DNA of 28,394 nt from positions 1 through 28,394 of IMG/VR virus record IMGVR_UViG_3300008108_000407; one strand, given 5' to 3'. The position numbers and the translations under genes were made by a program. The notes under the pieces are model-generated. The model did no database searches. It was not told the DNA's origin and saw only the letters and a program-made list of their open reading frames with translations. The stretch is from a virus. Position 1 is the first letter of the stretch. The number at the start of each line of letters is the position of its first letter. Shown piece by piece: positions 4,263-26,193 of the stretch.

Positions 4263-4442
4263 TTGCGAATATCTGGCTAGGAATGCTTCTAGTCTACAGT
4301 TGTAACTCTGTTTCGTTTCTATATTCTTAAATTCTACCCAATCATCGCCACCAGGGGATGTTATCTCTGTTACTTCCATAACAACAGATTTTGAATTTTG
4401 AACTGAGTGATACCTCTGCCCAATGCGGGGAAATTTACTCAT
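4251..4442 (-). CDS. Hypothetical small beta-rich protein, 63 residues
   Basis: MSKFPRIGQRYHSVQNSKSVVMEV... has alternating hydrophobic strands and a central WVEFKNIET, suggesting an SH3- or OB-like small barrel; function unknown. The start ATG overlaps the TGA of the upstream membrane ORF (ATGA), so it is probably translationally coupled, with AGGA about 11 nt upstream. Confidence 0.6.
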   Translation of the reverse strand: MSKFPRIGQRYHSVQNSKSVVMEVTEITSPGGDDWVEFKNIETKQSYNCRLEAFLARYSQLPD

Positions 4443-5679: not shown

Positions 5680-5872
5680 CGTCCGGCTCTCCCATGGGTT
5701 TTTCAATCCCAATCTTGCCGCGGCCCGCAGCAATGTTTGCTAGGATTTGTGTCTTTTGTTCCGCCCAGGCTTGTTCACTAAGGGTATGCAACCCTAAACA
5801 CTTTCCATTAGGACTACGTCCACACCCACAGCTACCAAATTCCTCGGTATTTTCAGTTACTCTTACTTGCAT
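5666..5872 (-). CDS. CDGSH-like iron-sulfur/zinc motif protein, 68 residues
   Basis: Residues 15-29 read CGCGRSPNGKCLGLH, i.e. CxCxxS-x4-CxGxH. This is very close to the CDGSH 2Fe-2S signature CxCxxS-x3-PxCDGxH but one residue shorter, with Leu for Asp. The three Cys and the His that ligate the cluster are all present, so a small metal site is likely. The remainder is a helical tail. AAAGGA lies 6 nt before the ATG. It overlaps the ends of both neighbours, indicating an operon. Confidence 0.65.
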   Translation of the reverse strand: MQVRVTENTEEFGSCGCGRSPNGKCLGLHTLSEQAWAEQKTQILANIAAGRGKIGIEKPMGEPDDEMV

Positions 5873-13145: not shown

Positions 13146-13271
13146 ATGGGCGGCACCTTATATAGACTAGTATACGAGCTCGAGGAGCAAGGTGCAAGTA
13201 TTCTGGCAAGACTAGGCCCCGCTGCGGCCTCGGCATTGATTGAAGATCTAGCAAGATCTAGATGGATATAG
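13146..13271 (+). CDS. Possible 41-residue protein
   Basis: ATG 13146 follows AGGAG at 8-9 nt and opens 41 codons (MGGTLYRLVYELEEQGASIL... ending LARSRWI). The product is a plausible amphipathic helix, but the ORF carries one of the GC-rich 12-mers and runs into a repeat tract, so it may be fortuitous. Confidence 0.35.
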   Translation: MGGTLYRLVYELEEQGASILARLGPAAASALIEDLARSRWI

Positions 13272-13318
13272 AGGGATATAGGGAAGATCTAGAGAGATAT
13301 AGGGAGATATAGGGAGTA
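13243..13318 (+). repeat. Degenerate tandem GGATATAG/AGATCTAG tract
   Basis: About 75 bp of purine-rich near-repeats: AGATCTAG alternates with GGATATAG-like units about every 10-11 bp. The tract lies inside the noncoding block 13272-13588 (its first units overlap the small ORF). Confidence 0.6.
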
Positions 13319-13427
13319 ACCATTTTAACTATGCCAGTCTCCACCACGGTCTGACAAATTTTTTTAGCCTAAGTCTAGGGTGCCCCACCACACTAAAGAG
13401 TCATAATCTAGGTTTGGCCACACAATA

Positions 13428-17777: not shown

Positions 17778-17789
17778 AGGTGCTATACT
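17761..17789 (+). promoter_or_regulatory. Early promoter P8
   Basis: TTGACA (17761-17766), N17, TATACT (17784-17789). The whole -35 and part of the spacer code for the last residues of the zinc-ribbon protein. Confidence 0.85.
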
Positions 17790-17817
17790 ATAGGCTAAGT
17801 TAAACAAAAGGAGCGAA
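17784..17817 (+). repeat. Repeated leader module, copy 1
   Basis: The stretch from the -10 through the SD is almost identical to 22514-22547 and 24762-24795: TATACTATAGGC, TAAGTTAAACAAAAGG, AGC. Confidence 0.75.
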
Positions 17818-17819
17818 CT

Positions 17820-18330: not shown

Positions 18331-18575
18331 TCACAGCAGAAGCTCTCCAAGAGATGATTGCCTATAGGGCACCCACATTAACCAAACTGGCCAAGGAAGG
18401 CGGCTGGAAGGGGCCTGCGTTCAGCTCGTGCAAGTTCCTAGGCATCACCAACGGCGGCCAAATCTGCTACATGGGCGTCTTCCTATGTGAGGGTGGCACT
18501 GACAGTACTAAGGTATTCTTATCCCACAGAGGCGGTAGGGTTATTGCTGACGTACAGTTGACAGAGTGGGCTTAA
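18327..18575 (+). CDS. Hypothetical protein, 82 residues
   Basis: MITAEALQEMIAYRAPTLTKLAKEGGW... has a helical start and a beta-rich rest (ICYMGVFLCEGGTDSTKVFLSHRGGRV). It has no SD of its own; ATGA overlap indicates coupling. Its 3' end carries P9. Confidence 0.65.
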   Translation: MITAEALQEMIAYRAPTLTKLAKEGGWKGPAFSSCKFLGITNGGQICYMGVFLCEGGTDSTKVFLSHRGGRVIADVQLTEWA

Positions 18576-18586
18576 GGCACTATAAT
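18558..18586 (+). promoter_or_regulatory. Early promoter P9
   Basis: TTGACA (18558-18563), N17, TATAAT (18581-18586). The upstream stop codon is in the spacer. Confidence 0.85.
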
Positions 18587-18609: not shown

Positions 18610-18620
18610 AGGAGCGACTC
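18610..18620 (+). promoter_or_regulatory. RBS complementary to the operon's own 3' hairpin
   Basis: AGGAGCGACTC, 2 nt before ATG 18623, is the exact complement of 19462-19472 at the end of the same operon. Confidence 0.7.
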
Positions 18621-18622
18621 AA

Positions 18623-19084
18623 ATGGCTACACGTTCAACTATTGCATTAGAATTTGCAGACGGCACAGTTCAACAAGTCTACTGTCACTGGGACGGTTAC
18701 TTGAGCAACAACGGAGTCCTGTTGCGCGATCACTACTCCAACCCATTCATCCTGCGTGACCTTATTGACTTGGGCGACATTAGCTCGCTTCGTCCTACTG
18801 TAGGCACCAAGCACGCCTTTAGCCAGTTTGAAACTAAAATGTCTAGCGAAGACTACGACAAGCTCTACGGCGAAATGACAACCTTTTACGGACGCGATCG
18901 CGGCGAAACAGGCACTGGCCCTAAGTCGTTCAAAGACTTTGAGGACTACAAAGAGAACTTCCAACACGAGGAATATGCTTATATCCTGCGTAAGGACGGC
19001 AACTGGTACGTCAAGCAACACAGCAAGGACTTCGAACTGTTGAACGAAGCGTTAGAAGTAGAATTAGCTGAGGAGGCAGCATGA
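18623..19084 (+). CDS. Conserved phage protein (MATRSTIA type)
   Basis: This 153-residue protein begins MATRSTIALEFADGTVQQVYCHWDGYL, an opening very common in phage hypothetical proteins, then SNNGVLLRDHY and an acidic C-terminal region. The function has not been described to my knowledge. It is first in a three-gene operon (18623-19462). The ending ELAEEAA overlaps the next start. Confidence 0.75.
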   Translation: MATRSTIALEFADGTVQQVYCHWDGYLSNNGVLLRDHYSNPFILRDLIDLGDISSLRPTVGTKHAFSQFETKMSSEDYDKLYGEMTTFYGRDRGETGTGPKSFKDFEDYKENFQHEEYAYILRKDGNWYVKQHSKDFELLNEALEVELAEEAA

Positions 19085-19293
19085 AAGTCCTAGTCCGTAC
19101 CCTACTAACACAAGAGCTTGAGGTTCCGGAAGGCTGGGACCGTTACGATGTACTGGACTTCCTTGCTGAACATCAGAGCTTCAGGACCGCGTTCCAAGGC
19201 ATTAGCAACGAGGATCAGACAGCCCGAGTTATTGACCTAGGTGTAGTAGAAGAAACTGTAGAACAACTTGGTGAGGAGTGTTTCGATGAGTAA
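19081..19293 (+). CDS. Hypothetical acidic protein, 70 residues
   Basis: MKVLVRTLLTQELEVPEGWDRYDVLDFLAEHQSF... is acidic, with one predicted strand and several helices. GAGGAGGC lies 4-5 nt before the ATG; it overlaps both neighbours, so it is coupled in the P9 operon. Function is unknown. Confidence 0.7.
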   Translation: MKVLVRTLLTQELEVPEGWDRYDVLDFLAEHQSFRTAFQGISNEDQTARVIDLGVVEETVEQLGEECFDE

Positions 19294-19462
19294 AATGAGT
19301 GAACTAGCATACGATATTGAGCAGCTGTACATTGAGGGCTATGGCCCTAAGAGTATCGCTGTCCAACTAGGCTGTCCTCTTGAACTAGTACATGACTGGA
19401 TCAAAGACAACGGCTGCAACGCCGCAGAGGACTTGAGTCCTTTTGAAACTATTAACAGCTAG
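19286..19462 (+). CDS. Small HTH-like protein, 58 residues
   Basis: ELAYDIEQLYIEGYGPKSIAVQLGCPLELVHDWIKDNG has the shape of a single helix-turn-helix of the sigma/transposase-like type (GYGPKSIAVQLGCPLELVHDWI). DNA binding is therefore likely. ATG 19286 follows GAGGAG by 8 nt. The stop codon lies inside the 3' hairpin discussed below. Confidence 0.7.
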   Translation: MSKMSELAYDIEQLYIEGYGPKSIAVQLGCPLELVHDWIKDNGCNAAEDLSPFETINS

Positions 19463-19475
19463 AGTCGCTCCTAGC
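19458..19475 (+). ncRNA. 3' UTR hairpin with anti-RBS loop
   Basis: GCTAG/CTAGC stem with loop AGTCGCTC. Bases 19462-19472 are the perfect reverse complement of the RBS at 18610-18620, heading the same operon. It may act as a cis or trans translational regulator. Confidence 0.5.
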
Positions 19476-19476
19476 A

Positions 19477-19507
19477 ACCCTGTGGGGCCCCAGGGTATTG
19501 GGCCCCA
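19477..19507 (+). terminator. GC-rich alternative hairpins
   Basis: TGGGGCCC (19483-19490)/GGGCCCCA (19500-19507) forms an 8-bp stem, mutually exclusive with ACCCTG/CAGGGT (19477-19482/19491-19496). There is no T-tract directly after, so it may be a weak terminator or an attenuator. Confidence 0.5.
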
Positions 19508-19546
19508 CCCCGCACTCGCCCTGTTGTTTTAGAGCCACAATCAGAG

Positions 19547-21938: not shown

Positions 21939-22025
21939 GCCCGGGTGGTGAAATAGGTAGACACAAGAGACTTAAAATCTCTCGCTCGAAAGGGCGTGCC
22001 GGTTCGATTCCGGCTCCGGGCACCA
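21939..22025 (+). tRNA. tRNA-Leu (anticodon TAA)
   Basis: The acceptor GCCCGGG pairs with TCCGGGC (one G-T wobble), followed by A and an encoded CCA. Anticodon stem AGAGA/TCTCT with loop CTTAAAA, long class II variable arm, and T-loop TTCGATT. It reads UUA/UUG. Confidence 0.9.
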
Positions 22026-22032
22026 AGTTTCA

Positions 22033-22110
<78 letters not shown>

Positions 22111-22115
22111 TACAT

Positions 22116-22192
22116 CACGCCTTAGCTCAGTTGGATAGAGCAACAGCCTTCTAAGCTGTGGGCCACTGGTTCGAATCCAGTAGGCGTGGCCA
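22116..22192 (+). tRNA. tRNA-Arg (anticodon TCT)
   Basis: CACGCCT pairs with AGGCGTG, then G and CCA. Anticodon stem ACAGC/GCTGT with loop CTTCTAA; T-arm ACTGG/CCAGT. It reads AGA/AGG. It lies 8 nt before the next promoter. Confidence 0.9.
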
Positions 22193-22490: not shown

Positions 22491-22519
22491 TTGACAGATT
22501 GGACACTCTTTGCTATACT
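22491..22519 (+). promoter_or_regulatory. Early promoter P14
   Basis: TTGACA (22491-22496), N17 containing TTGGAC, TATACT (22514-22519), followed by leader module copy 2. Confidence 0.85.
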
Positions 22520-22547
22520 ATAGGCTAAGTTAAACAAAAGGAGCCAA
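22514..22547 (+). repeat. Repeated leader module, copy 2
   Basis: Near-identical to 17784-17817 and 24762-24795. Here the SD reads AAAGGAGCC. Confidence 0.75.
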
Positions 22548-22549
22548 CA

Positions 22550-24758: not shown

Positions 24759-24767
24759 GCTTATACT
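24739..24767 (+). promoter_or_regulatory. Early promoter P20
   Basis: TTGACA (24739-24744), N17, TATACT (24762-24767), then leader module copy 3. Confidence 0.85.
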
Positions 24768-24795
24768 ATAGGCTAAGTTAAACAAAAGGAGCGAA
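24762..24795 (+). repeat. Repeated leader module, copy 3
   Basis: Near-identical to 17784-17817 and 22514-22547. Confidence 0.75.
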
Positions 24796-24798
24796 CCT

Positions 24799-25168: not shown

Positions 25169-25196
25169 ATTAATTTTACACACAGGAGCGAATTAA

Positions 25197-26087
25197 ATGG
25201 CAAAGGTTGTTACCAGTCAAATGCTAATGAATGCTAGCGCAGACGTTAAGAGCTTGGAACAGGACAAGGACTTTCTCAAGGCCAAGGCCCAACAGCTGGC
25301 TTCAGAGTCTGATGAAGACATTATGACTCGACTCAAAGATCGCTTTGAGATTCTTGAAGACATGACTCGTGCCTGCAAGAAGGGCGATGTACGTGCTATG
25401 ATTGTTACTGGTCCCCCAGGCGTGGGCAAGAGCTTTGGCGTAGAGAAAGTACTTAGCAAGCATGATGTGTTTGCTGATGTAGCCAACGATTCAAAGCTGA
25501 AAAAGTACGAAGTAGTCAAGGGTGCGATGAGCGCCATTGGCTTGTACAAGAAGCTCTATGAGTTCTCAGATCGCAAGTGTATACTGGTGTTCGATGACTG
25601 CGACTCAGTGCTCCTAGATGACTTGAGCTTGAACATTCTCAAGGCAGCACTGGACAGTTCAAAGAAGCGTACTATCCATTGGAACACTGACAGCCGACTC
25701 CTGCGCCAAGAAGGTGTGCCCAACTCATTCGAGTTCAAAGGCGGTGCTATCTTTATCACCAACATCAAGTTTGATCACGTTAAGAGCAAGAAGCTTAAGG
25801 ATCACTTGGAAGCTATCGAGTCACGTTGCCACTACTTGGACTTGACCATTGACACTGATCGTGAGAAGCTGTTGCGTATTAAACAGGTAGTGCGTGATCA
25901 TGGCATGCTGGATGACTACAAGCTAGAGGATAGTGCCAAGGTAGAAGTAATTGACTTTATTGAACGCAACCAAAAGCGTATGCGTGAGCTGAGCTTGCGT
26001 ATGGTGCTTAAGGTAGCGGATATACGTGCTAGCATGCCTGCTAAGTGGCAAGCTGTAGCCGAAGTAACCTGTATGCGTAATAGATAA
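25197..26087 (+). CDS. AAA-family ATPase
   Basis: This 296-residue protein has Walker A GPPGVGKS (about residues 72-79), Walker B ILVFDDCD (about 129-136), and GGAIFITNIKF as sensor 1. The lid region follows, with helices near DFIERNQKRMRELSLRMVLKVADI. It is a single AAA module with a helical N-terminus, familiar in phages; such ATPases act as motors or clamp-loader-like remodellers, substrate unknown. SD AGGAGCGAAT matches the anti-RBS loops in its own 3' UTR. It is the last and largest gene of the battery. Confidence 0.85.
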   Translation: MAKVVTSQMLMNASADVKSLEQDKDFLKAKAQQLASESDEDIMTRLKDRFEILEDMTRACKKGDVRAMIVTGPPGVGKSFGVEKVLSKHDVFADVANDSKLKKYEVVKGAMSAIGLYKKLYEFSDRKCILVFDDCDSVLLDDLSLNILKAALDSSKKRTIHWNTDSRLLRQEGVPNSFEFKGGAIFITNIKFDHVKSKKLKDHLEAIESRCHYLDLTIDTDREKLLRIKQVVRDHGMLDDYKLEDSAKVEVIDFIERNQKRMRELSLRMVLKVADIRASMPAKWQAVAEVTCMRNR

Positions 26088-26193
26088 TAATAATAGGCAT
26101 ACAGGCTAGGTCACTGGACGATTCGCTCCCGGACTGTGACTTTGCTGTGCCCCAGGATATCCGATTCGCTCCCGGTATCCTGGGGTTTTTTTT
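26068..26193 (+). ncRNA. Structured 3' UTR / candidate small RNA with two anti-RBS loops
   Basis: Three hairpins in a row. H0: CCTGTATGC/GCATACAGG (26068-26076/26097-26105), enclosing the ATPase stop. H1: GTCAC/GTGAC (26110-26114/26136-26140). H2: CCCCAGGATA/TATCCTGGGG (26150-26159/26176-26185) followed by eight T, a strong intrinsic terminator. H1 and H2 share the identical CGATTCGCTCCCGG (26119-26132, 26162-26175), whose CG-closed loop ATTCGCTCC is the reverse complement of the GGAGCGAA(T) ribosome binding site. It could be released as a small RNA or act in cis. Confidence 0.6.

Follow-up and report, generated by a model that had tools for sequence, protein, structure and literature searches.

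Organization of the operon

The window, i.e., the whole stretch of DNA analysed, is an environmental phage record of 28,394 bases. It contains an operon (18623–19462, plus strand) consisting of three genes, g1, g2 and g3, that encode proteins of 153, 70 and 58 aa, respectively, and it is preceded on the same strand by a sigma70-type promoter (TTGACA, 17 nt, TATAAT) at positions 18558–18586. The g1 product (18623–19084) was assigned by protein family search to PHROG 1987, of unknown function, and no family was found in Pfam and PHROG for the g2 reading frame (19081–19293). The third reading frame (19286–19462) most likely starts at ATG 19286, and not at TTG 19268, and its product displays a weak helix-turn-helix similarity, with profile matches to HTH_23 (E 0.0047) and Terminase_5 (E 0.002) that both lie below the curated cut-off. 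A nucleotide search of the operon against named phages gave no match, and a protein search with the downstream 74-aa gene retrieved 20 stretches and no confirmed relative.

The g1 ribosome-binding site (RBS), AGGAGCGACTC, is located at 18610–18620 (+) and ends 2 nt upstream of the ATG at 18623. At the opposite end of the operon, a hairpin (19458–19475, +) is predicted to fold at -6.4 kcal/mol from the arms GCTAG (19458–19462) and CTAGC (19471–19475), which enclose the loop AGTCGCTC (19463–19470). The stop codon of g3 (TAG, 19460–19462) lies within the 5' arm, so a ribosome that reaches the end of g3 should melt this hairpin. When an intrinsic terminator is taken as a GC-rich hairpin followed by a T run, the 19458–19475 structure, with its short stem and no T run, does not qualify as one. 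A stronger GC-rich hairpin, GTGGGGCCC..GGGCCCCAC, is predicted downstream (19482–19508, +) and constitutes a possible terminator, likewise with no T run. Searches against Rfam identified only three tRNAs in the window, and no match to the g3 3' UTR up to an E value of 5.

Three other features of the window were recorded. Near-identical promoter-RBS cassettes, TATACTATAGGCTAAGTTAAACAAAAGGAGC, are present at about 17779–17818, 22512–22548 and 24760–24797, and the genes behind them differ. A tRNA cluster, Leu(TAA), Met(CAT) and Arg(TCT), spans 21939–22192, and the region 13200–13330, devoid of any obvious gene, contains repeats of words resembling GGATATAG/GATCTAGA.

The 3' hairpin carries an 11-nt complement of the first RBS

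The original prediction was that the 3' hairpin of the operon contains a perfect 11-nt complement of its first RBS, and this was confirmed. The stretch GAGTCGCTCCT (19462–19472, +) is the exact reverse complement of AGGAGCGACTC, and the 11-mer occurs only twice in the record, once per strand, with 0 occurrences expected (0 in 100 dinucleotide shuffles). When the leaders of 35 plus-strand genes bearing a Shine-Dalgarno (SD) sequence were compared with their post-stop regions (35 x 35 = 1225 pairs), the pair formed by the g1 leader and the g3 end was the longest, with 10 nt past the stop codon, or 11 when the last base of the latter is included. Six pairs tied next at 9 nt, one of them being the leader of an ATPase gene with its own 3' UTR. 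The bare duplex of the g1/g3-end pair is predicted at -20.2 kcal/mol, a figure that does not include loop constraints.

Eight of the 11 matched nucleotides (AGGAGCGA) are the standard RBS of this phage, of which the plus strand holds 14 copies; hence the complementarity of the hairpin spans the SD regions of several mRNAs, at 14 plus-strand sites in the window. In agreement with this, the best 15 of 58 leaders have predicted pairing energies of -14.0 kcal/mol or lower. The only part of the match that is particular to g1 is CTC, and this additional match may be due to chance. A fortuitous origin of the whole pair, favoured by the recurrence of an RBS that supplies 8 of the 11 nt, is very improbable given that 0 occurrences are expected, and chance was rejected for the loop class as a whole on this ground and on the concordance of loop and RBS across lineages described below. 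On the minus strand the element reads AGGAGCGA, which could suggest the remnant of an RBS or promoter that once served a gene there; this reading, whose probability we regard as negligible, was rejected since no ATG, GTG or TTG is found at SD distance on that strand, and the loops are moreover held on hairpin stems.

The ATPase 3' UTR and a wider class of loops

The general RBS of the phage is AGGAGCGAA, and the loop of the g3 hairpin belongs to a wider class of loops complementary to it. A second member of this class was found behind the ATPase gene mentioned above (25197–26087, +), which family searches assigned to the AAA ATPases of the T4 NrdC.10 family (PHROG 1250) and whose homologues in T4-like phages are annotated nrdC.10. 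The RBS of this gene is AGGAGCGAA(T) (25184–25192, +), and its 3' UTR contains GATTCGCTCCC twice. The first copy (26120–26130, +) is located in a predicted hairpin loop that is not an intrinsic terminator under the definition used above, and the second (26163–26173) at the tip of a hairpin that is one, CCCCAGGATA..TATCCTGGGG-T8, with the apical part CCGATTCGCTCCCGG (26150–26193, +). The bare duplex of the ATPase loop with the RBS is predicted at -13.7 kcal/mol. Comparison of this UTR with Rfam produced six weak matches, the best of 17.1 bits against a cut-off of 54.

To the ATPase of the window we added 80 related loci, which gave 66 distinct rows, hereafter lineage I. All 66 carry TTCGCTCC or AATCGCTCC in the 300 nt of the 3' UTR, once in 5 rows, twice in 59 and three times in 2. 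In four ATPase homologues of named phages (L374-L377), the 160 nt that follow the stop codon do not contain the element. The motif also occurs at the 3' end of a gene encoding an HTH protein (HTH_39), with TCGCTCC within 200 nt in 49 of 55 cases, and the HTH genes that carry the element have no GGAG in their own leader (56/56). A further element was observed on the minus strand of L467, near 17413, behind a 204-aa MPNWCNN gene; its linear TTTGCTCC matches GGAGCAAA in the RBS located two genes upstream, and the two may form an own-operon pair. As a separate observation, a second ATPase family (about 350 aa; L007, L008, L036 and others), with the RBS GGAGCG, is encoded upstream of the HTH gene and forms in the tree a clade separate from the ATPase of the window. 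The general rule put forward in the original prediction, that operon ends act on operon starts, is thereby supported in part, in that some operon ends, namely those of g3, the ATPase gene, the HTH gene and the 204-aa gene, carry RBS complements. When recurrent hairpin-loop words were sought in 13 records without preset motifs, G003 was the only one in which the expected words were prominent.

Covariation was analysed in one structural type, class A, comprising 34 stretches (29 distinct at 35 nt) out of 240 distinct 71-nt motif-bearing stretches. Class A was picked by its inner letters AAC..GGYAA, and its inner invariance is thus partly by construction. In the seven pairs of the outer stem, 97.7% of the cells are paired, and all 7 show changes on both sides. 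The stem covariation score was 0.788, compared with 0.217 for shuffled alignments, none of which reached the observed value in 500 trials, and slid versions scored no more than 0.163. Of the five measures, the number of pairs changed on both sides and the number of pair types were not clearly above the shuffles, of which 262/500 and 49/500, respectively, were equally high.

These data bear on whether the element could be a binding site for a phage protein, a DNA operator or an RNA site placed at gene starts and ends, with the complementarity as a by-product. A double-stranded DNA site would likewise appear as a reverse complement, and two further C bases beside the motif of class A are invariant although they were not a criterion for choosing the class, as in protein-binding RNAs. 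Nevertheless, the 3' copies lie in RNA hairpin loops, the class A stems covary, the ATPase UTRs read hold the motif in the complement orientation and the 5' copy coincides with the SD sequence, none of which a DNA-binding protein needs. We therefore regard a protein site as decidedly improbable.

Loop and RBS differ together between lineages

The ATPases of L002, L004 and L005 are 71% identical and come from phages with RBSs such as AGAGGGCAAT; in the L004 and L005 records, where the UTR was read, the 3' loops are UGCCCUC. A search with this type of ATPase provided 34 distinct UTRs of what we term lineage III, whose typical RBS is GAGGGC. GCCCTC is present in 33 of these 34 UTRs and in none of the 66 of lineage I, and TTCGCTCC is present in 0/34. 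In lineage III, TGTGCCCTCG loops are borne on several different stems. A strict loop test, run after removal of 29 duplicates and of 4 rows that were short or startless, produced the same picture: among UTRs of genes with GGAGCG leaders, 48/60 have a CGCTCC loop and 0/60 a GCCCTC loop, and among those with GAGGGC leaders, 21/24 have a GCCCTC loop, one of which also has a CGCTCC loop. Control cores were found in 9, 7, 1 and 0 of 145. The leaders of other genes follow the same vocabulary, with GGAGCG in 177/551 and GAGGGC in 8/551 for lineage I, and 6/404 and 146/404, respectively, for lineage III.

A clade nested in lineage III has AAGGGC leaders in 8 of 18 rows, and no element was detected within 300 nt after its ATPase (0/17), which is followed by another reading frame. 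Separately, an ATPase homologue was noted in L508, a contig binned as Flavobacteriaceae, with three hairpins (1869–2020) whose loops share TGCCCTC; its own leader is GAGGGAACG, and the other leaders of the contig are mostly GAGGAGC.

A third vocabulary emerged from a protein-guided search with the HTH gene, which gave 80 loci kept without reference to the motif. According to their 3' UTR hairpin, 21 of these loci are of type II (loop GUAGUGU), 2 are of type I and 57 failed both tests, the latter including L453 and L455, which do carry GATTCGCTCCC. The loop of this lineage II is GGUAGUGU, and its leaders carry ACACUA, the complement of UAGUGU. ACACTA was found in 91/279 leaders of the type II loci, compared with 7/344 in loci with the same protein that failed the hairpin test. 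The match between loop and leader is 6 nt long, predicted at -5.9 kcal/mol. In two lineage II UTRs the UAGUGU loop lies downstream of a linear UGCUCC, as would be expected if the two paired antiparallel with ACACUA-AGGAGCA, and many lineage II HTH UTRs retain a linear CGCTCC, which matches their GGAGCA RBSs incompletely. The HTH gene of L396 is followed at about 4280–4390 (L459, 11180–11290) by four adjacent hairpins on different stems, with the loops GTAGTGT (three times) and AACGCTCC (once). ATPases were matched 8 times in 34 loci; 5 have a usable start, 2 have none and 1 (L456) a wrong one. The leaders of the 5 usable ATPases all carry ACACTA, and no element was seen in the at most 87 nt available after their own stop codons; consequently, these 5 are not counted as own pairs. 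In L012, ACACTA is present in 11/17 leaders with no hairpin; at position 5774 of this record, TTAGTGTGG (linear TTAGTGT) lies directly after a stop codon and before a terminator-like hairpin, perhaps as an unstructured anti-leader.

At the level of whole vocabularies, where the comparison is of the kind proposed in the original prediction, loop and RBS thus change together between lineages, as far as the sequences tell. The concordance is further supported by the loop word remaining constant while stems differ and by different genes carrying one loop word. In a tree of 53 rows (5 of the 58 chosen rows, with no protein, were left out), lineage I, the second ATPase family, lineage II and lineage III fall into separate groups. 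The concordance recorded in these sequences therefore amounts to about two or three switches, not to dozens of events, whatever the number of loci.

The loops match the general RBS, own operon included

In the original prediction the g1/g3-end pair also looked co-adapted, on account of gene-specific bases in the match. A g1-guided search of IMG/VR retrieved 53 loci, in which the hairpin follows g3 in 1 of 18 distinct g3 ends (L001); the other 17 have no hairpin, and often the next promoter lies directly behind. In L027 the hairpin follows a gene that shares the last residues of g3. A loose scan for the hairpin pattern yielded at least 119 stretches, and most of those listed are fortuitous and come from unrelated contigs. 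A scan restricted to CTAGTTCGCTCCTAG, in which sequence variants are under-sampled, gave 19 stretches, and 8 records (9 with L169) look genuine by context and resemble this phage group; in L131 the upstream gene falls outside the locus. The hairpin of the relatives reads CTAG-TTCGCTC-CTAG, and its loop UUCGCUC complements the general RBS. Its stem is short, and the outer (fifth) pair, G-C or A-T, does not form in some relatives. The same loop on the CTAG stem is found after g3-like genes and, in L169, after the ATPase gene.

In seven distinct cases, the match of the element, hairpin arms included, to its own g1 leader is 11 (window), 11, 10, 10, 10, 9 and 4 nt, the last in L504/L505, where the loop is kept nonetheless. 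Compared with the other leaders of the same record, the own leader is the unique best in the window only and a tied best in two records, so that no leader is better than the own one in 3/7 cases; it is outranked in the remaining four, by 1, 2 and 6 leaders and, in one record, by 21/32. Other leaders are equal or better in 6/7 cases. Since the own leader is tied or beaten in most records, it appears to be usually among the best targets, with a high rank in 6/7 cases, but not a private one, and fine co-adaptation of this particular pair is not supported: a match of at least 9 nt is kept in 6/7 cases but is shared with other leaders, and it is lost in L504/L505.

For the ATPases, the own leader is at least one of the likely targets. 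In lineage I the core complementary to the loop is present in 60/64 own ATPase leaders compared with 177/551 other leaders, and in lineage III in 24/31 compared with 146/404. The four lineage I rows lacking GGAGCG comprise one cut-off leader (L217), two mis-picked starts (L199, with GGAGCG visible upstream, and L232) and one real exception (L254). Beyond 6 nt, the lineage I match extends in 45/62 own ATPase RBSs and in 216/240 of the other leaders that match at least 6 nt. Fine own-pair co-adaptation was tested in these ATPases and not found, the loop being near-constant whereas the own RBS varies downstream of GGAGCG. Moreover, gene families with no element within 200 nt have GGAGCG throughout (23/23, 16/16 and 13/13).

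Strict autoregulation, in which each 3' element would be tuned to the leading RBS of its operon and, through mRNA circularisation, pair with no other, agrees with several of these observations: the own pair of the window is the longest of the 1225 and that of the ATPase is tied next, own ATPase leaders are richer in the core than other leaders in lineages I and III, the g1 match persists in most records, and the own ATPase leader of L169, AGAAAGAGCGAAC, read by eye, keeps an 8-nt complement despite a weak SD sequence. It is at odds with the equal or better leaders of most g3-hairpin records, with the 4-nt match of L504/L505 and with the GGAGCG leaders of element-free families. The lack of GGAG in the leaders of the element-bearing HTH genes points in the same direction, although it is not decisive because these genes may end an operon that starts with a different RBS. 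We thus consider strict autoregulation unlikely, and a private pair per operon is weakly supported. Because own ATPase leaders extend the match less than other leaders do and element-free families also use GGAGCG, we conclude that the loops would address the general RBS of the phage, own operon included.

Proposed mechanism

The explanation that we consider probable is that these elements constitute a class of 3'-UTR anti-RBS hairpins, whose loops would pair with RBSs and repress the translation of their own mRNA and probably of other phage mRNAs. In this proposal, loops borne on variable stems present the reverse complement of the RBS of the lineage, or of the bases just before it, and would pair with the SD region of phage mRNAs, thereby blocking 30S binding, perhaps with RNase III cleavage. 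As message ends accumulate, translation would in this way be dampened. Pairing probably affects the own operon, within a circularised mRNA or from one copy to another, and it probably extends to other mRNAs that share the RBS, perhaps via a released 3' fragment. Pairing of the RBS with the 16S tail of E. coli, as a stand-in for the host, is predicted at -7.6 kcal/mol, weaker than the pairing of either the g1/g3-end pair or the ATPase loop.

Comparison with known RNA regulators

Plasmid antisense RNAs employ U-turn (YUNR) recognition loops and are encoded opposite their target. UUCG in the lineage I loop fits YUNR by letters only, and, unlike plasmid antisense RNAs, the phage loops are not encoded opposite their target. 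Concerning RNAs that act on phages, one study reportedly describes an RNA derived from the prtV 3' UTR that acts on a phage mRNA.

The closest case that we found is icaR of Staphylococcus aureus. There, the 3' UTR contains a UCCCCUG motif that base-pairs with the SD sequence of the very mRNA that carries it, which blocks ribosome loading and creates an RNase III substrate, and its authors allow for pairing in cis or in trans (PMC3868564). The phage elements resemble this case in that a 3' UTR motif complements the SD region at the start of its own mRNA (11 nt for the g1/g3 end and 9 nt for the ATPase), and by analogy with icaR the loops should repress translation. Unlike icaR, described there as a single chromosomal gene, the phage class extends over many phages and several operons; its loops recur on different stems, and from lineage to lineage the motif differs along with the RBS vocabulary. 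The same source presents RNAIII and RsaE as regulatory RNAs that pair with mRNAs in trans through C-rich motifs (PMC3868564). They share with the phage loops a short pyrimidine-rich motif and a pairing with targets, here predicted; they are dedicated bacterial RNAs, whereas the phage loops form part of mRNA 3' UTRs and terminators.

Phage-encoded or phage-directed small RNAs, in the available sections of a further source, are antisense or Hfq-dependent and stem mostly from temperate phages (PMC12197685). Those sections describe none as a 3' UTR complement of the general RBS of the phage; the likeness to such RNAs, as far as they are covered there, consists in the RNA regulation of phage genes, proposed here, and in one case originating from a 3' UTR. 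In searches of open-licence full-text papers we recognised no report of phage 3' UTR loops complementary to the RBS of the phage. The principle is known from icaR, and the class, its spread and the switching of loop and RBS look new.

Implications for phage gene expression

An action on translation starts is known for few 3' UTRs of bacteria or phages, icaR being a case of one gene. That loop and RBS differ together between lineages suggests, from comparison of sequences, that the ends of messages can switch off their starts. A recurrent class with co-differing loops and RBSs would be a natural compensatory-mutation experiment for 5'-3' mRNA communication, and it supplies ready-made loop/RBS pairs for orthogonality tests. 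We tentatively put forward, as a possibility that falls somewhat short of even chances, a lineage-specific translation code, in which an RBS word private to the phage is common to many of its genes and the complement of this word is displayed by 3' UTR hairpins, providing a phage-wide, self-limiting brake on translation that would spare host mRNAs with other RBSs. If this is true, changing the RBS word requires changing the loops, as in lineages I, II and III, and the class would offer a reason for the uniform RBSs of these phages.
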